Below are positions 9,010 to 54,234 of a stretch of DNA of 64,000 nt, one piece after another. Origin of the DNA: Rhodospirillales bacterium. Its GTDB lineage: Bacteria > Pseudomonadota > Alphaproteobacteria > Acetobacterales > Acetobacteraceae. The notes beneath the pieces were generated by a model. That model saw only the letters and a program-made list of their open reading frames with translations. It was not told where the DNA came from and did not search any database. Both the position numbers and the translations under genes were made by a program. The DNA lies in contig JANYFG010000039.1 of assembly GCA_025362815.1 (NCBI GenBank), positions 1 to 64,000 on the forward strand, given 5' to 3'. The first letter of the stretch is position 1; each line of letters starts with the position of its first letter.

Positions 9010-9801
9010 ATGAGCAAGATCACGCTGGCCCAAGGCTCGGTTGAGGCCGAAAGTTTCGGCACTGGCCCCACCCTCGTGGTGTTCCACTCCCTTCTGGCGG
9101 ACCGCACCAGCTTCGACGCCGTCATTCCCGACCTCGCCGCGCATTTTCGCGTCATCGTGCCGGCGCTGCCCGGGTTCGGCCACTCCGCTCCGGCCCCCGG
9201 CGGTTTGGCCGGCGTTGCGGACCGCATGGCCGAAGCCATCGCGGAATTGGGCGGCAAGGTGGCCTTGCTCGGCAACGGCTATGGCGGCTTCGTGGCGCTG
9301 CAGATGACGCTCCGCGCCCCCCACCTCGTCTCCCGCCTCGTCATCGCGGACGCCGGTGCCGCCTTCTCCGAGCCGGGCCGCGCCGCATTTCGGGGCATGG
9401 CCATGGGCGCCGCCGCAAAGGGGCTGGAGGGCATCGCCGACATCGCCATGCGCCGCCTGTTCTCGCCGGATTTCCACGCTGAAAACCCGGCTCTCGTCGC
9501 CGAACGCCGCGCCATCTTCCTGCAGTCCAACCCGGAGATCGTCATCGCCGCCTGCACCGCGCTGGCCGACATGGACCTTCGCCCGCAGATCCCCGCCATC
9601 GCCATCCCAACCCTTGTGATCGTGGGAGCGCAGGACGAGGCGACGCCACCGGCGATGTCGGAAGAGCTTGCGGAGCTTCTTCCCCACGCCCGGCTGCAGA
9701 TTCTGGACGGCCTTGCTCATGTGCCGCAGTTGCAAGACCCTGCCCGGTTCCTGATGGCGGTTTTGCCATTTTTAAAGCAGAATCAAGATGTTCTTTTGTG
9801 A
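9010..9801 (+). CDS. Alpha/beta hydrolase
   Basis: VVFHSLLADRTSFDAVIPDLAAHFRVIVPALPGFGHS, LGNGYGGFVALQM; stop codon lies inside repeat hairpin. Confidence 0.85.
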   Translation: MSKITLAQGSVEAESFGTGPTLVVFHSLLADRTSFDAVIPDLAAHFRVIVPALPGFGHSAPAPGGLAGVADRMAEAIAELGGKVALLGNGYGGFVALQMTLRAPHLVSRLVIADAGAAFSEPGRAAFRGMAMGAAAKGLEGIADIAMRRLFSPDFHAENPALVAERRAIFLQSNPEIVIAACTALADMDLRPQIPAIAIPTLVIVGAQDEATPPAMSEELAELLPHARLQILDGLAHVPQLQDPARFLMAVLPFLKQNQDVLL

Positions 9802-9826
9802 ACAAAAGAACCAAAAAACTTCATTC
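9790..9826 (+). repeat. Family 1 palindromic repeat, module A only
   Basis: GTTCTTTTGTGAACAAAAGAAC + CAAAAAACTTCATTC, same sequence at 15195, 22797 and inverted at 39829, 43010, 49020. Confidence 0.93.
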
Positions 9827-15194: not shown

Positions 15195-15231
15195 GTTCTT
15201 TTGTGAACAAAAGAACCAAAAAACTTCATTC
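15195..15231 (+). repeat. Family 1 palindromic repeat, module A only
   Basis: GTTCTTTTGTGAACAAAAGAACCAAAAAACTTCATTC, identical to 9790-9826. Confidence 0.93.
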
Positions 15232-22796: not shown

Positions 22797-22884
22797 GTTC
22801 TTTTGTGAACAAAAGAACCAAAAAACTTCATTCTTATGATGAAAGTCTTTTTGCTTCTTTTTCTTCAGAAAAAGAAGATTCTTG
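22797..22884 (+). repeat. Family 1 palindromic repeat, full A-C-B copy
   Basis: A hairpin 22797-22818; tails CAAAAAACTTCATTC / GATGAAAGTCTTTTTG; B hairpin CTTCTTTTTCTTCAGAAAAAGAAG 22854-22877. Confidence 0.93.
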
Positions 22885-22886
22885 TA

Positions 22887-23453
22887 TTAAATCGCGGGCA
22901 ACAACACGTTCCGCCCCACGCTTGCCGATTCTTCGGCCACCAGATCGTTGATGCTCATATCGGCGCGCGTCCACCACTGCGCGCCGGGCGGCAGCATCGG
23001 CAAGGGGTCGCCGGTGAAGCGCACGGTGTTGGTGGGGGTTTCCTGCACCTCGATCTCGGTGCAGATCAGGCGCGCGCCGTCATCCACCAGCAGCGCATTC
23101 AGCTTGGCCATCATGCAGCACGCCAGAACCTCGGTGGTGGGGTCTCCGGGTGTCACCAGTATCCGCGTCAGCCGATGCGGTTCGTGGAGGCGGAACCAAT
23201 CGATCAGCGTGTCGCGGTCCGACAGCTGGAAGGCGTGGTCCACGTGATTGTCCACCCAGCGATGCCAGGCGGCCTTCGCGCGCTCGAACGGCTCCACCAT
23301 GTTCATATGGCCGTCCAACCGACTGGGCTGGGTGGCCATCAGCCGGACGGTGACGAATTCGTTATGACCATGCGGCGTTGCGCATTTTTCGGAATTGCCG
23401 GAAATCAACCGGTGCGCCATCGCGAAGCGGCGACTGAAAACCAGGTTGAACAT
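22887..23453 (-). CDS. 6-pyruvoyl-tetrahydropterin synthase / 6-carboxytetrahydropterin synthase-like (QueD-like) protein
   Basis: FNLVFSRRFAMAHRL...C...PHGHNEFVTVRL and DNHVDHAFQL motifs. Confidence 0.72.
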   Translation of the reverse strand: MFNLVFSRRFAMAHRLISGNSEKCATPHGHNEFVTVRLMATQPSRLDGHMNMVEPFERAKAAWHRWVDNHVDHAFQLSDRDTLIDWFRLHEPHRLTRILVTPGDPTTEVLACCMMAKLNALLVDDGARLICTEIEVQETPTNTVRFTGDPLPMLPPGAQWWTRADMSINDLVAEESASVGRNVLLPAI

Positions 23454-39015: not shown

Positions 39016-39752
39016 ATATTCGTTTTGACGGCAAGACCGTGGCCGTGAGCGGCGCCGGGCAGGGTTTTGGCCGTGTGATCGCGCAGAGCTTCGCCGATCT
39101 CGGCGCCACCGTGCATGGCTGCGACATTCTGGCGGACGGGCTGGCCACCACGTCCGCCGGCCGGAACATCGGCACCGCCCTGGTCGACCTCACCGACCGC
39201 AAGGCGGGTGCGGCGTGGATCGAGAAGATCGGGCGGGTGGACATTCTGGTCAACAACGCCGGCGGCGTGGGCGGGCAGACGCAGCACCCGCTGGAGGACG
39301 TGCCCGACGCGGATTGGGACCGGCTGTTCGACATCAACGTCAACGCCGCCATGGTGCTGTCGCGCGCGGCGGCACCCGGCATGAAGGCCCACGGCGCGGG
39401 GCGCATCGTCAACATCAGCTCCGGCGCCGGATTGCAGGCGTCGCTGACCGGCATTCAGGCTTATTGCAGCGCCAAGCACGCCGTGATCGGTCTCACGCGC
39501 CAGTTGGCGCACGAGCTGGGCGCGTTCGGCATCACGGTGAATTCGGTGGCGCCGGGGTTCGTTCTCAGCAATCCCGCCACCGAGGCGCAATGGGATTCCT
39601 ACGGTGCCGAGGGGCAGAAGGCCCTGGTGTCGCGCATTGCGCTGAAACGGCTGGGGACCGCGCAGGACATTGCGAACGGGGTGATTTTCTTTGCCTCGGA
39701 TCTGGCTGCTTTCGTGAACGGGCAGATATTGTCGGTGGATGGGGGAAGGTAG
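39012..39752 (+). CDS. SDR family oxidoreductase
   Basis: VAVSGAGQGFGRVIAQSFADLG; VDILVNNAGG; YCSAKHAVIGLTR. Confidence 0.92.
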   Translation: MNIRFDGKTVAVSGAGQGFGRVIAQSFADLGATVHGCDILADGLATTSAGRNIGTALVDLTDRKAGAAWIEKIGRVDILVNNAGGVGGQTQHPLEDVPDADWDRLFDINVNAAMVLSRAAAPGMKAHGAGRIVNISSGAGLQASLTGIQAYCSAKHAVIGLTRQLAHELGAFGITVNSVAPGFVLSNPATEAQWDSYGAEGQKALVSRIALKRLGTAQDIANGVIFFASDLAAFVNGQILSVDGGR

Positions 39753-39753
39753 G

Positions 39754-39850
39754 ATTCTTCTTTTTCTGAAGAAAAAGAAGCAAAAAGACTTTCATCCATT
39801 AGGAAAACTAAGCGAATGAAGTTTTTTGGTTCTTTTTTTCACAAAAGAAC
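39754..39850 (-). repeat. Family 1 palindromic repeat, full B-C-A copy (inverted)
   Basis: B hairpin 39757-39780, CAAAAAGACTTTCATC...GAATGAAGTTTTTTG, A hairpin variant GTTCTTTTTTTCACAAAAGAAC 39829-39850; fills the intergenic gap between convergent genes. Confidence 0.93.
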
Positions 39851-39853
39851 TGC

Positions 39854-41659
39854 TTAAGCCTCCACCACCTGCTTGCGCAACAAATCACGATAAGGCCCCG
39901 GCCGTTGCGACAGCTCGTCCGGCGAGCCGTCGTCGATCACGCGGCCATCCTCCATCACCACGATGCGATCGAAATTGCGCAATGTGCTCAGCCGGTGCGC
40001 CACGGCGATGACGGTGCGGCCCTGCATGAGATTGTCGAGCGCGTGCTGGATGGCGTGTTCGCTGTCGCTGTCGAGCGCGGAGGTTGCTTCGTCGAGCAGC
40101 AGGATCGGCGCGTCCTTCAGCAGCGCGCGGGCGATGGCAAGGCGTTGGCGCTGGCCGCCGGAGAGTTTGGCGCCGCGGTCGCCGACCATGGTGTGGAACC
40201 CCTCCGGCAGTGCCTCGATGAAGTCGCGGCAGCGCGCCACGTTGGCCGCCGCCAGCACCTGGTCGTCTGACGCGTCGGGCCGGGCATAGCGGATGTTCTC
40301 GAGGACGGATCGGTGAAACAGCGAGATGTCCTGCGGCACGATGGCCATGGCGTCGCGCAGGCTTTGCTGCGTGATCCCCGTGATATCCTGGCCATCGACC
40401 GAAATGCGGCCGGACTGCACGTCGTGGAAGCGCTGCAGCAGCGACACCACGGTGGATTTTCCCGCACCGGATGCGCCCACCAGACCCACGCGCTGGCCGG
40501 TGGGGATGCGCAGGCTGAATTGATCGAGCACCGGCTTGCGACCGGGATAGGCGAAGGTGACGTCGGCGAACACCACGTCGCCTTGCAAGGCGATCAGCTT
40601 CTGGGCGTCGGCGCGGTCCGTCAGGTCGTGCGGCACGAGCAGCGCGCCCAGGGCTTCGTCCATGCGGGCAATGTTCTGCGTGAGCTCGACGAGCGCCACC
40701 GCGAGGTCGCGCGTGCCGTGCAGGATGGTGAAGCCCAGCGAGCAGATCAGCACCAGGTCGCCGGCGCTGGCGGTGCCGGCCTGCCACATGGTGATGCCCC
40801 AGCCCAGTAGCCCCGCGGTGACCACAGCTGTCATCACGGCGTGGATCAGACGCAGCTTCTCCATGTAAAGGAGGCTGCGGCGGCGTGCCCGCATTTCGGT
40901 GGCCATGCGGTCGCCGAAGCGGGACTGCTCGCGGAACGTGGCCCCGAAGGCACGCACCACGCCCATGTTGCTGATGACATCGACGAGTTCGCCGTCCACC
41001 GCCGCCGCTTCATGCGCGTAGGCGCGGTGCAGCGGCGTGCCGTTGCGGGCCAGCAGGAATATCACGAGGGCCATCGACGCACCGATGCCGGCCAGCGCGA
41101 GCCCCATCATCGGCTGCACGGTGGAGATCAAGGCGATGGCGATGACGACGGCAAGGCAGGGCGGCAGCACGTTCCAGCTCAGCACGTTCTCGGTTTGAAA
41201 CATGGCCTGCGCGGTGGAGGTGACGCGGCCCGCCAGCGTGCCCGGCAGGCGTTCGGCGTAATAGGAGGGTGCGTGCCCGGCGAGATGGGCGAACAGGTCG
41301 CGCCGCACCTGGCCGGTGACGCGCACGAAGCTGAACGCCGCCATGCCGCAGCCCACGCGCCACATCAAATTGTCGGCGGTGATCAGCGCGCACAGCAGCG
41401 CGAACGCTGCCCACACGTCGCCGCCGCCTTGCGTGCCCATACCATGCGTGCCCAGACCTTGCGCACCGGGGCCTTTCGACACCGCGTCGATCAGGGATTT
41501 CATGCCGTATTGCGTGGTGACGGACGCCGCCACCGCCAGCACCACGGCGCCCAGCACCACGGCATGGCCCGCCGGATTCTGCGCCACGTAGCGCCACAGG
41601 AAGGCGATCGGGCGATGGCGGTAGGAGGTGAGGTCGGGCGCGCCACCGGGATCGGACAT
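39854..41659 (-). CDS. ABC transporter, fused transmembrane and ATP-binding domains (exporter type)
   Basis: VGLVGASGAGKSTVVSLLQRF, LSGGQRQRLAIARALLKDAPILLLDEATSALDSDSE; start near MSDPGGAPDLTSYRHRP. Confidence 0.9.
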   Translation of the reverse strand: MSDPGGAPDLTSYRHRPIAFLWRYVAQNPAGHAVVLGAVVLAVAASVTTQYGMKSLIDAVSKGPGAQGLGTHGMGTQGGGDVWAAFALLCALITADNLMWRVGCGMAAFSFVRVTGQVRRDLFAHLAGHAPSYYAERLPGTLAGRVTSTAQAMFQTENVLSWNVLPPCLAVVIAIALISTVQPMMGLALAGIGASMALVIFLLARNGTPLHRAYAHEAAAVDGELVDVISNMGVVRAFGATFREQSRFGDRMATEMRARRRSLLYMEKLRLIHAVMTAVVTAGLLGWGITMWQAGTASAGDLVLICSLGFTILHGTRDLAVALVELTQNIARMDEALGALLVPHDLTDRADAQKLIALQGDVVFADVTFAYPGRKPVLDQFSLRIPTGQRVGLVGASGAGKSTVVSLLQRFHDVQSGRISVDGQDITGITQQSLRDAMAIVPQDISLFHRSVLENIRYARPDASDDQVLAAANVARCRDFIEALPEGFHTMVGDRGAKLSGGQRQRLAIARALLKDAPILLLDEATSALDSDSEHAIQHALDNLMQGRTVIAVAHRLSTLRNFDRIVVMEDGRVIDDGSPDELSQRPGPYRDLLRKQVVEA

Positions 41660-42911: not shown

Positions 42912-43031
42912 CTTCTTTTTCTGAAGAAAAAGAAGCAAAAAGACTTTTATTCATGAAGGTGCGTGGTGCGGAAAATTGTACATCACGTCTTCATGAATGA
43001 AGTTTTTTGGTTCTTTTGTTCACAAAAGAAC
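42912..43031 (-). repeat. Family 1 palindromic repeat, full B-C-A copy (inverted), extended central stem
   Basis: B hairpin 42912-42935, ATTCATGAAG...CTTCATGAAT central stem, A hairpin GTTCTTTTGTTCACAAAAGAAC 43010-43031. Confidence 0.93.
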
Positions 43032-47563: not shown

Positions 47564-48943
47564 ATGACCGTTCGCACCCGCTTCGCCCCTTCGCCCACCG
47601 GCCTGCTGCATATCGGCGGCGCCCGCACCGCATTGTTCAACTATCTGTTCGCCCGCCATGAGGGCGGCGAATTCCTGTTGCGGGTGGAAGACACCGATCG
47701 CGAGCGCAGCACCGATGCCGCCACCCAGATGATCCTGCAGGGTTTGGACTGGCTGGGCCTGCGCCATGACGGGCAAACCGTGTTCCAGTCCAGCCGCCAG
47801 GCGCGCCATACCGAGGTGGCGTTGCAGATGCTGGCCGCGGGGCGGGCTTATCGCTGCTTTCTCAGCCCCGCCGAGCTTGCCGCCATGCGCGAACAGGCCG
47901 CCGCCGAGAAACGGCCGTTTCGCCTGGTGAGCCCGTGGCGGGACCGCGATCCCGCGGAGGTCCCTTCCGATATTCAGCCGGTGATCCGCGTGCGCGCGCC
48001 GCTTGTGGGGGAGACTGTGGTGGACGACCTGGTGCAGGGGCCCGTGCGGGTGGCGAACAGCGAGATGGACGACCTCATCATCCTGCGCAGCGACGGCACG
48101 CCCACGTATCTGCATGCGGTGGTGGTGGACGACCACGACATGGAGATCACCCATGTGATCCGTGGCGACGACCATCTGACCAACACCTTCCGCCAGATCC
48201 TGATCTATCAGGCCAACGACTGGGCGCTGCCGAAATTCGCCCATATTCCGCTGATCCATGGGGCGGACGGGGCCAAGCTGTCGAAGCGCCACGGCGCCGT
48301 GAGCGTGCTGGAATTCCGCGAGCAGGGGTTTTTGCCGGAGGCGGTGTGCAACTATCTGCTGCGCCTGGGCTGGGGGCATGGCGATACCGAACTGCTGGAT
48401 ATCGACGAGGCGATCAGGCTGTTCACGCTGGAAGCCGTGGGCCGGGCCGCCAGCCGGATGGACTACGCCAAACTGACGCATGTGAACGCCCACTACATGC
48501 GGCTGGCGGATGACGGCCGGCTGGCCCACGACGTGGCGGCGCGGCTTGGGATCACCGACCCTGCCATCCAGGCCCGCGTGCTGGCGTTGATGCCGGGGCT
48601 GAAGGAGCGCGCGCGCACGTTGGTGGAGCTTGCGCAGTCCGCGGCGTTTCTGGCGCTGCAACGGCCGATTGCGTTCGATGCCAAGGCGCAGGCGCTGCTC
48701 ACGGACGACTCGCGCGCCATGCTGGCGCAGGTGGCGGCGGCGCTGGCCGCGTCGGATTTCTCGCAGGGCGCCATCGAGACGGTGCTGCGCGAGACGGCCG
48801 AGGCCACGGGCCGCAAGCTCGGCCAGGTGGCGCAGCCGATCCGCGCGGCGCTGACGGGCACCACCACGAGCCCGCCAATCGACGCGACGCTGCTGGCATT
48901 GGGGCCGGACGAGGCGCTCGCGAGGATCAGGGACGTCGTTTAG
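47564..48943 (+). CDS. gltX: Glutamate--tRNA ligase
   Basis: TRFAPSPTGLLHIGGARTALFNYLFARHEGGEFLLRVEDTDRERS; KLSKRHGAVSV (KMSKS-like). Confidence 0.97.
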   Translation: MTVRTRFAPSPTGLLHIGGARTALFNYLFARHEGGEFLLRVEDTDRERSTDAATQMILQGLDWLGLRHDGQTVFQSSRQARHTEVALQMLAAGRAYRCFLSPAELAAMREQAAAEKRPFRLVSPWRDRDPAEVPSDIQPVIRVRAPLVGETVVDDLVQGPVRVANSEMDDLIILRSDGTPTYLHAVVVDDHDMEITHVIRGDDHLTNTFRQILIYQANDWALPKFAHIPLIHGADGAKLSKRHGAVSVLEFREQGFLPEAVCNYLLRLGWGHGDTELLDIDEAIRLFTLEAVGRAASRMDYAKLTHVNAHYMRLADDGRLAHDVAARLGITDPAIQARVLALMPGLKERARTLVELAQSAAFLALQRPIAFDAKAQALLTDDSRAMLAQVAAALAASDFSQGAIETVLRETAEATGRKLGQVAQPIRAALTGTTTSPPIDATLLALGPDEALARIRDVV

Positions 48944-49041
48944 ATTCTTCTTTTTCTGAAGAAAAAGAAGCAAAAAGACTTTTATTCATTAGAATTATTT
49001 GAATGAATAAAGTTTTTTGGTTCTTTTGTTCACAAAAGAAC
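48944..49041 (-). repeat. Family 1 palindromic repeat, full B-C-A copy (inverted)
   Basis: B hairpin 48947-48970, CTTTTATTCATT/AATGAATAAAG central stem, A hairpin 49020-49041. Confidence 0.94.
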
Positions 49042-49045
49042 AGCT

Positions 49046-49816
49046 TCATGAGTGCATATCGTCCCGCACTTTGCTCGCCAGCGTGTGCAGCCCCGAGCCC
49101 GCGCCGTTGGACATCACGCTGAAGCCGGTTTGGCGGCTGATCCAGGCGTATCCCGCCACCGCTCCGCGCGCGACCGGGCGCATGGGCAGCTGTTCGGCGG
49201 TGGTCATCGGCTGCATGTAGACGGTGATGCGGTTGCCGTTGATGTCGTCGTACATCAGCATTGCCGCCGGCCCGCCCACGGCGGCCAGTACCCGCCCGCC
49301 GATGAAGCGGTAGCCGAGACGGGACAGGTCCGGCACCTCCACCCGCCGTTCCAGCCTTTCCGACATCCAGCCGACGAGTTCGGTGCGATTGGTTGGACCG
49401 AGCTCCACCGGTCGCTCGATATCGGACACGAACACCCGATGCGCCGCGGTGGCCTGCATGGTGAGCCATTCCATGTCGGAGGGGCGGTGCCGGTCGCGCG
49501 CCATCCATCCGGTGGCGCCGCCGAGCGACAGGGCGAGCAGAAATCCGGCGGCGACCTGCCACCGCACATGGCTTCGCGACACCCGTTGCTCGATCCGCCG
49601 GCTGAGGTTCAGCCGCGCCGGCACCGGCTCGCGCGCCTTGAAGGCGAACGCCTCGCGCAGCAGCGCCACCTCGTGCCGCCAGTCATCGAGCCGTGCGGCG
49701 AGCAGCGGGTCGTGCTGCATCATCGCGGCGATTTCGGCGTAGCGCGCGGCGTCGAGTTTTCCATCGACGAAGGCGTGCAGTTCCTCCTCCTGGATGGGGC
49801 GCGTGGATGGGCTCAT
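49046..49816 (-). CDS. Anti-sigma factor (single TM)
   Basis: IQEEELHAFVDGKLDAARYAEIAAMMQHDPLLAARLDDWRHEV, TM QVAAGFLLALSLGGATGWMA; overlaps the ECF sigma gene. Confidence 0.87.
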   Translation of the reverse strand: MSPSTRPIQEEELHAFVDGKLDAARYAEIAAMMQHDPLLAARLDDWRHEVALLREAFAFKAREPVPARLNLSRRIEQRVSRSHVRWQVAAGFLLALSLGGATGWMARDRHRPSDMEWLTMQATAAHRVFVSDIERPVELGPTNRTELVGWMSERLERRVEVPDLSRLGYRFIGGRVLAAVGGPAAMLMYDDINGNRITVYMQPMTTAEQLPMRPVARGAVAGYAWISRQTGFSVMSNGAGSGLHTLASKVRDDMHS

Positions 49817-52550: not shown

Positions 52551-52593
52551 ATGAATAAAAGTCTTTTTGCTTCTTTTTCTTCAGAAAAAGAAG
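52551..52593 (+). repeat. Family 1 palindromic repeat, module B only
   Basis: ATGAATAAAAGTCTTTTTG + CTTCTTTTTCTTCAGAAAAAGAAG (52570-52593). Confidence 0.92.
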
Positions 52594-52596
52594 ACT

Positions 52597-54234
52597 CTAC
52601 GCCTGACGCTCAAGATGATCTCGAAAGCGATTGCGCAAAGTCAGTTTATGTACCTTGCCGGTGGCGGTGTGTGGCAGTTCATCCAGCACCACCACGCCAT
52701 CCGGCAGCCACCATTTCGGGATTTTGCCGTCGTAGATCGTCAGCACCTCTGCGGGGTCCAGCGTGGCGCCGGGGCGGGCCACCACCACCAGCAGGGGCCG
52801 TTCGGTCCATTTTGGGTGGCTTGTGGCCACGATCGCCGCTTCGGCGACGTCGGGGTGAGAGACGGCGATGTTTTCCAGCGTGATCGAGCTGATCCATTCG
52901 CCGCCTGACTTGATCACGTCTTTTGAGCGATCGGTGATTTCCATGGTGCCGCCGGGGTCGATGGTGGCGACATCGCCGGTGGCGAACCAGCCCTGCGCAT
53001 CGCATGCGCTGCCTGGCTCCTGGCCCCAATAGGCGGACGCGACCCATACCCCGCGCACCATCAGGTTGCCCTGGGCCACGCCGTCCCATGCCAGTTCGGC
53101 GCCGCTGTCGTCGACGATCTTCATGTCGATCCCGAAGATGCCGCGCCCCTGTTTTTCCAGATGCCGCAGCTTGGCCTCGCCGGCGAGGTTCATGGTGGTC
53201 GGCACCGGCGCGTTCATGGTGCCCAGCGGGCTGGTTTCGCTCATGCCCCAGGCGTGATCGACGCGCACGCCGTATTCGGTTTGGAACGCCGCCAGCAGGA
53301 GACGGGGGCAGGCGGACCCGCCGATCACCAGGCGGTCCACCGTTTCGAGCCGTTCGCCGCTGGCGCGCAGATGGTGCAGCAGGCCCAGCCAAACCGTGGG
53401 CACGCCCGCCGACATCGTGACATGCTCGTCGTTCATCAGCGCGGTGAGGCTGGGGCCATCGAGATGCCGGCCCGGCATGATGAGCGAGGCACCTGTGGCC
53501 GGGGCGGCGTAGGGCAGGCCCCAGGCATTGACGTGAAACATCGGCACGACCGGCAGCACGCGGTCGGTGGCGCGCAGCCCGAACACGTCGGGCGCGGTGA
53601 CGGCCATGGCGTGGATGACAGTGGAGCGATGGCTGTAGAGCACGCCCTTGGGCTTGCCGGTGGTGCCGGAGGTGTAGCAAAGCGAGGCGGCCGTGCGTTC
53701 GTCGAACTCCGGCCAGGTGTAGTCGTCGGTTTCGGCTGCCATCAGCTCCTCGTAGCATAGCAGGGCCATGCCGGAGGGCAGATCGAGGGCGGGCATCTCG
53801 GCGCGGTCGCACATGAAGACGACGGCGCGGACCGAGGGGGTTTGGGTGGCGATGGCCTCGATGATGGCGGCGAAGCTGGTTTCGGCGAAGATGACGCTGT
53901 CGGCGGCGTCGGCCACGATGAAGCCGATATCGGGGGCGCCGAGACGGGGATTGATGGTGTGGCAGATCGCCTGCATGCCGGAGACGGCGTAGTAGAGCTC
54001 CAGATGGCGAAACCCGTTCCAGCCCAGCGTTGCCACGCGGTCGGACGGCTTGATGTCCAACCCCTTGAGGACCCGGACCAGGCGGCGCGCGCGGGATTCG
54101 AGGTCGGGGTAGCGATACCGGTGGATGCCGCCATCGACGTTTTTGGACACGATCTCGGACGCGGTGTGATTGCGCGCGGCGTGGCGGATGATCGACGAGA
54201 TCATCAGCGGTCGGTCCTGCATCAGCCCAAACAT
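52597..54234 (-). CDS. Acyl-CoA synthetase (AMP-binding, fatty-acid--CoA ligase family)
   Basis: [55 protein letters not shown]. Confidence 0.93.

Follow-up and report, generated by a model that had tools for sequence, protein, structure and literature searches.

Bidirectional Rho-independent terminators lie between stop codons and carry an A-tract, a stem and a T-tract that are read on both strands. The Acetobacteraceae element described here has the same plan and position but differs in being repeated, at more than 100 sites per genome, and in having a conserved hairpin outside each tract. The closest known repeats are the intrastrand-triplex repeats PIT and TM-ECO of enterobacteria, which like BoxC share with our element a pyrimidine arm and a purine arm separated by a short loop and, beyond a second short loop, a mirror purine third strand (PMC4666352). 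They are likewise repeated, with copy numbers that differ strongly among close relatives. PIT is G/C-rich, has arms of 9 nt and was reported to have neither promoter nor terminator activity and no known function (PMC4666352), whereas the arms of the Acetobacteraceae element are A/T-rich, measure 4-7 nt and stand at both ends of a probable terminator, with a putative third strand that covaries.

Other described systems resemble the element in part. Genome-specific dialect repeats also form intergenic terminators in the uptake-signal terminators of Neisseria and Pasteurellaceae (PMC1852404), but the Acetobacteraceae module is longer, has its own hairpin at each end and shows mirror besides inverted symmetry. 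Like MITE-type repeats (EFAR, RUP) and REP/BIME, it is a high-copy palindromic intergenic sequence, many of whose middles are REP-like (GTGTTGCGGATATATCCGCAACACG); the Acetobacteraceae are entered in the same source as being without CGTC repeats (PMC3733652). It departs from these repeats in that its ends are fixed and its middle variable, and no RAYT-type transposase was found in the host genome. In U.A-U major-groove triplexes, such as that of the telomerase pseudoknot, a U-rich third strand lies directly 5' of the 5' arm of the stem. The Acetobacteraceae element has the same layout: its putative third strand directly precedes the stem on the 5' side, runs parallel to the purine arm on the 3' side and would cross the deep groove. 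It differs in the tetraloop that closes its hairpin, and what is described of it here is the sequence code. Our literature searches found no report of the Acetobacteraceae element and none of triplexes in terminators.

The window, by which we mean the whole 64,000-nucleotide stretch analysed, contains the copy of reference at 48944-49041. A preliminary description had presented it as a central hairpin with T-runs, flanked by two accessory hairpins, and the element and the order of its parts are confirmed. In general, the element spans about 100-130 bp and has a variable central stem at its middle, preceded by end hairpin A and an A-tract and followed by a T-tract that leads into end hairpin B. 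The reference copy is directly preceded by the TAG stop (48941-48943) of gltX (47564-48943). On its far side lies a gene of opposite orientation (49046-49816), whose stop codon starts at 49046; this gene had no match in a Pfam search and adjoins a gene for an ECF-type sigma factor.

Hairpin A, of the GAAG type (48947-48970, + strand), consists of CTTC, TTTTTC, a UGAA tetraloop, GAAAAA and GAAG (CTTCTTTTTC-TGAA-GAAAAAGAAG, then CAAAAAGAC). It is followed by the purine tract AAAAAG (48972-48977, + strand), which repeats in mirror order the GAAAAA of the hairpin's upper purine arm and on the - strand is the exit T-tract CTTTTT. The central terminator stem (48979-49012), which varies among copies, has arms at 48979-48990 and 49001-49012; the proposed partners CTTTTATTCATT and GAATGAATAAAG do pair, but not perfectly, since a one-base bulge is needed. 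The exit T-tract TTTTTT (49013-49018, + strand), which on the complementary strand serves hairpin B as its entry A-tract, leads to hairpin B itself, of the GAAC type (49020-49041, - strand). Read inward, this hairpin is GTTC, TTTTG, UGAA, CAAAA and GAAC (GTTCTTTTG-TTCA-CAAAAGAAC, preceded by GTTTTTTG). Both strands have a stem with a T-tract behind it, the exit tracts being TTTTTT (+) and TCTTTTT (-). Counting the pairing of A-tract with T-tract, three hairpins form on either strand, and this fold has z-scores of -4.8 and -4.95 on the two strands, equalled by 0 of 200 shuffles. No Rfam match in the window reached the gathering score.

The other copies named in the preliminary description were all recovered, but its list was short by a left-end-only copy (52551-52599, - strand) and two right-end-only copies (9790-9825 and 15195-15230, both - strand), which bring the occurrences in the window to seven, of which four are full and three are half-elements. 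Chance matches to either end hairpin numbered 0 in 100 shuffles of the window. Among the full copies, that at 42912-43031 (+ strand) has a long central stem, the perfect 10-bp ATTCATGAAG/CTTCATGAAT that had been claimed for it, and the copies at 22797-22877 (- strand, with a short middle) and 39757-39850 (+ strand) have the weak central stems also claimed. The 39757-39850 copy lies between a convergent short-chain dehydrogenase gene ending at 39752 and an ABC transporter gene ending at 39854, and the 22797-22877 copy is directly downstream of a - strand PTPS-family gene (22887-23453). Convergent genes also flank the half-elements at 52551-52599 (molybdopterin oxidoreductase and AMP-binding enzyme) and 9790-9825. 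At the latter, an alpha/beta hydrolase ORF of the + strand (9010-9801) has as its stop a TGA that forms the tip of the right-end hairpin; the half-element therefore supplies the stop codon of the hydrolase.

The host assembly (3.05 Mb, 76% complete) contains about 110 copies of the element. Left ends number 77 at two mismatches or fewer and right ends about 108, the latter being 216 strand matches halved because the right-end hairpin is nearly palindromic. Of the copies at the retrieved host loci, 66 are full, 11 have the left end only and 34 the right end only. Contigs C2, C19, C21, C22, C28, C40, C46, C63, C69 and C118 of this genome end at or near element copies, which indicates that the repeat breaks the assembly and that the true copy number is probably higher.

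If the element is a terminator in both directions, it should lie where two genes end. With genes called by a simple codon-usage model trained on the window, 66 host-genome elements lie at convergent junctions, about 30 at tandem and 2 at divergent ones; for the elements of relatives the numbers are 62, 64 and 4. The pooled 228 elements (128 convergent, 94 tandem, 6 divergent) were compared with all gene junctions of the pooled sequences (121 convergent, 464 tandem, 112 divergent). Convergent junctions hold 56% of elements and make up 17% of the background (Fisher p = 4e-28), and divergent junctions 3% against 16% (Fisher p = 4e-9), equivalent in odds to a sixfold enrichment and a sevenfold depletion. 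Because the background consists of the window and of loci picked for holding elements, the test for convergent enrichment is conservative. The element usually starts within a few bases of a stop codon, and in relatives the median distance is 8 nt to facing stop ends versus 38 nt to facing gene starts.

The position at convergent junctions and operon ends, the avoidance of divergent junctions and the stem with a T-tract on both strands support the proposal of a bidirectional intrinsic terminator. We regard this as the best reading of the sequence, and a terminator function as likely. Not every copy can be a full two-way terminator, given the many decayed central stems and the common right- or left-end-only copies. 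One of the rare divergent copies (L159, about 1490-1625 in genome G174) lies just upstream of a -35-like TTGACG promoter and is without counterpart in two congeners; it may insulate the neighbouring promoter. In all genomes purines predominate in the flank before the element (GGAAGNAAG) and pyrimidines in the flank that follows (CTTCCTTCC), and these flanks may extend the outer stem or serve as a second U-rich release tract.

The central stem had been taken as the part in which structure is kept while sequence varies. Right halves were swapped between copies and the chimeras refolded: native stems are more stable on average, both in the host genome (-15.5 versus -11.1 kcal/mol, p = 6e-6) and in relatives (-19.0 versus -13.0 kcal/mol, p = 2e-11). 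The claim holds to that extent, but a native stem better than 95% of its chimeras is found in only 27-37% of copies, and many central stems are plainly decayed. Middles vary in length and sequence, with mean pairwise identities of 32-61%; many of those in the host genome contain the REP-like palindrome GTGTTGCGGATATATCCGCAACACG, and the middles of other genera differ. Quasi-palindrome correction can also keep hairpins perfect. In view of this process and of the decayed copies, central pairing by itself argues only weakly for selection on RNA.

The end hairpins, in contrast to their description as accessory, are the conserved part of the element; they covary between species, and each is tied to its own tract base by base. 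Mean pairwise identity is 95.8% for end A and 97.8% for end B, and among the 66 full host-genome copies hairpin A with its tract is identical in 44 and the T-tract with hairpin B in 51. Covariation across species is strong here. In an alignment of half-elements across the family, restricted to one length class because arm lengths differ, 97.5% of cells are paired, with 20 double-sided changes (C-G/G-C at the outer pair, C-G, G-C and U-A at the apical pair, U-A/C-G at the inner pair). The covariation score is 0.261, against 0.100 when shuffled and at most 0.087 in slid registers (0 of 500). The apical bases are GA, giving the tetraloop UGAA, on the inward-read strand of 468 of 537 hairpins, a polarity meaning that each hairpin is built either for the RNA that enters from its own side or for the complementary strand that leaves there. 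The two ends of an element are usually unlike, one GAAG and one GAAC (173 of 186 elements). We considered cross-pairing of the A and B arms into one long hairpin and rejected it, as the unlike outer pairs would mismatch.

Beyond each end hairpin the sequence runs C, tract, AC, and the tract mirrors that hairpin's own upper purine arm, with A in place of C. Tract and arm are equal in length in 484 of 488 halves and the mirror sequence is exact in 466. Since sequences within a genome are nearly identical, the independent evidence amounts to about a dozen variant arms rather than hundreds of copies. All 13 distinct perfectly paired arms obey the mirror rule, including 6 that exclude a direct copy; a direct repeat fits 7 of the 13, a shifted repeat 3 and a reverse complement none. 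Distinct arm-tract pairs match in 11 of 11 cases, versus a permutation mean of 1.4 (p < 5e-5). Site by site, A in the arm corresponds to A in the tract 2355 times, G to G 234 times and C to A 101 times, with 25 exceptions. Two predictions set before the search were matched: arm AAGAA, which cannot tell mirror from direct copy, has tract AAGAA at 4 of 5 sites, and arm AAAAG has tract GAAAA at the sole site found. For arm AAAGA, the pattern gave no sites in the 50 genomes searched, and two natural cases occur among the retrieved loci. A G or C in the tract weakens central pairing, giving G.U on one strand and a mismatch on the other; the central stem therefore does not explain the coupling of arm and tract.

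At a C-G inversion in a triplex, T is the best tolerated natural base. On the exit strand of our element the T-tract runs parallel to the purine arm, and an arm A is matched by T, an arm G by C and an arm C by T. Read from the letters, the mirror rule is a parallel triple-helix code of T·A-T, C·G-C and T at C-G, the first two being standard parallel pyrimidine triads (PMC13407867). A Y-R-R layout is present, with pyrimidine arm, purine arm and mirror third strand joined by loops of 4 (UGAA) and 5 (GAAGC or GAACC) nucleotides. Against the 6-15 nt of the ITxF search (PMC4666352), the left end, with 6 nt, falls inside the range and the right end, with 5 nt and a C inversion, outside. A working triple helix is plausible, though we stop a little short of calling it probable: it would have only 4-7 triads, C.G-C requires protonation and a single base joins the tract to the foot of the hairpin. 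The mirror rule could also reflect some non-triplex constraint.

The interpretation that we favour, with some reserve, is a portable, family-specific two-way terminator in which each T-tract also serves as third strand to the end hairpin next to it. A transcript from either side would meet its own end hairpin with the UGAA loop, followed by an A-tract and the central stem common to both directions, and would be released at the T-tract behind the stem or just beyond it. On the leaving strand, the T-tract before the end hairpin would lie in the major groove of that hairpin, parallel to the purine arm, so that tract and hairpin would form an intrastrand triple-helix module of 4-7 triads (T.A-T, C.G-C, T at a C-G inversion). 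This module might lock the T-tract and 3' end after release or read-through, or stall the polymerase, and might thereby allow a terminator rich in A/T to function in a genome rich in G+C. It could act in either of two settings, as RNA, protecting or locking 3' ends, or as DNA, stalling polymerase. The layout of the element, its place among genes, the covariation of the stems and the mirror coupling are observed in the sequences; from these patterns we infer termination in vivo, triplex formation and the role of the triplex.

An ordinary repeated bidirectional terminator, whose end hairpins do no more than stabilise mRNA 3' ends and whose mirror coupling is a by-product of another constraint, such as DNA shape or a binding protein, is a somewhat unlikely alternative. 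Position and folds require no triplex, and the conserved asymmetric UGAA loops would suit a hairpin of an RNA 3'-UTR. Such a terminator leaves unexplained, however, why the length of the tract and the place of its G track the mirror of the arm in all 13 arm types, and why a tract G or C is retained at the cost of a wobble or mismatch in the central stem. Dyad-symmetric protein sites, moreover, are inverted repeats and not mirror repeats.

Less probable still is a MITE-like mobile element that, once inserted, is tolerated at gene ends and nowhere else, its terminator properties being incidental. Elements have been gained or lost, as copy number swings within genera (half-elements: about 12 in G071, about 715 in G198) and one site occupied in G174 is empty at the orthologous position in G118 and G216. 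Ends that are nearly identical inside one genome, and the two or three copies in some intergenic regions (L281, L224), also agree with mobility. Common ends with unshared middles are nevertheless unlike copies of one recent element, the aligned flanks of the G174 site have no target duplication, and the inserted stretch there extends past the hairpins. As for mobilisation by a REP/IS200-type enzyme, no Y1 transposase (PF01797) was found in the host genome, an absence that is not certain at 76% completeness. The gltX ends of relatives were set aside as empty sites: 12 lack the element, but their neighbours differ too. In a congener assembly, an element (L039, G004:C125:12249-12379) is identical to one of the host genome (L025, G000:C36), which would point to binning contamination or very recent transfer.

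The generalised half-element pattern was matched in 58 of 200 Acetobacteraceae genomes, with up to about 715 matches in one genome (G198) and none for the reversed control pattern. In 285 genomes of the class from outside the family there was one match, without a full hairpin. The element family is Acetobacteraceae-wide and essentially absent elsewhere in the class. Exact left-end copies are found in records named Gluconacetobacter, Roseomonas, Pseudoroseomonas, Rhodovarius and Neokomagataea, in MAGs labelled Asaia and Rhodovastum, and in many further Acetobacteraceae MAGs. Dialects are largely uniform inside one genome and differ from genome to genome; the genomes compared are drafts and the independent dialects are few. 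Such dialects, and the documented terminators built from uptake signals (PMC1852404), would agree with a genome-specific uptake or protein-recognition signal parked in terminators, but we think this very improbable, because the signal would be a 33-nt hairpin with tract and not a 9-12-mer, the element hardly occurs away from gene ends and its mirror coupling would go unexplained.

Fixed ends with unrelated middles could be due to strong selection on the ends or to a factor that reads them in trans. Such a reader would further be implied by dialects that stay uniform within a genome although the middles are unrelated. We advance only tentatively the wider proposal that the triple helix has been selected family-wide as a working part of the terminator, the T-tract and the next hairpin having coevolved by a Hoogsteen code. 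If true, a triplex in a terminator would be a new working part for bacterial terminators. Triplex-forming bacterial repeats have been catalogued for decades without known function, and a natural third strand that covaries with its duplex across species and is fixed at gene ends would make triplex function directly testable. For the Acetobacteraceae, the element provides a recognisable terminator mark in their genomes and a candidate two-way terminator part.
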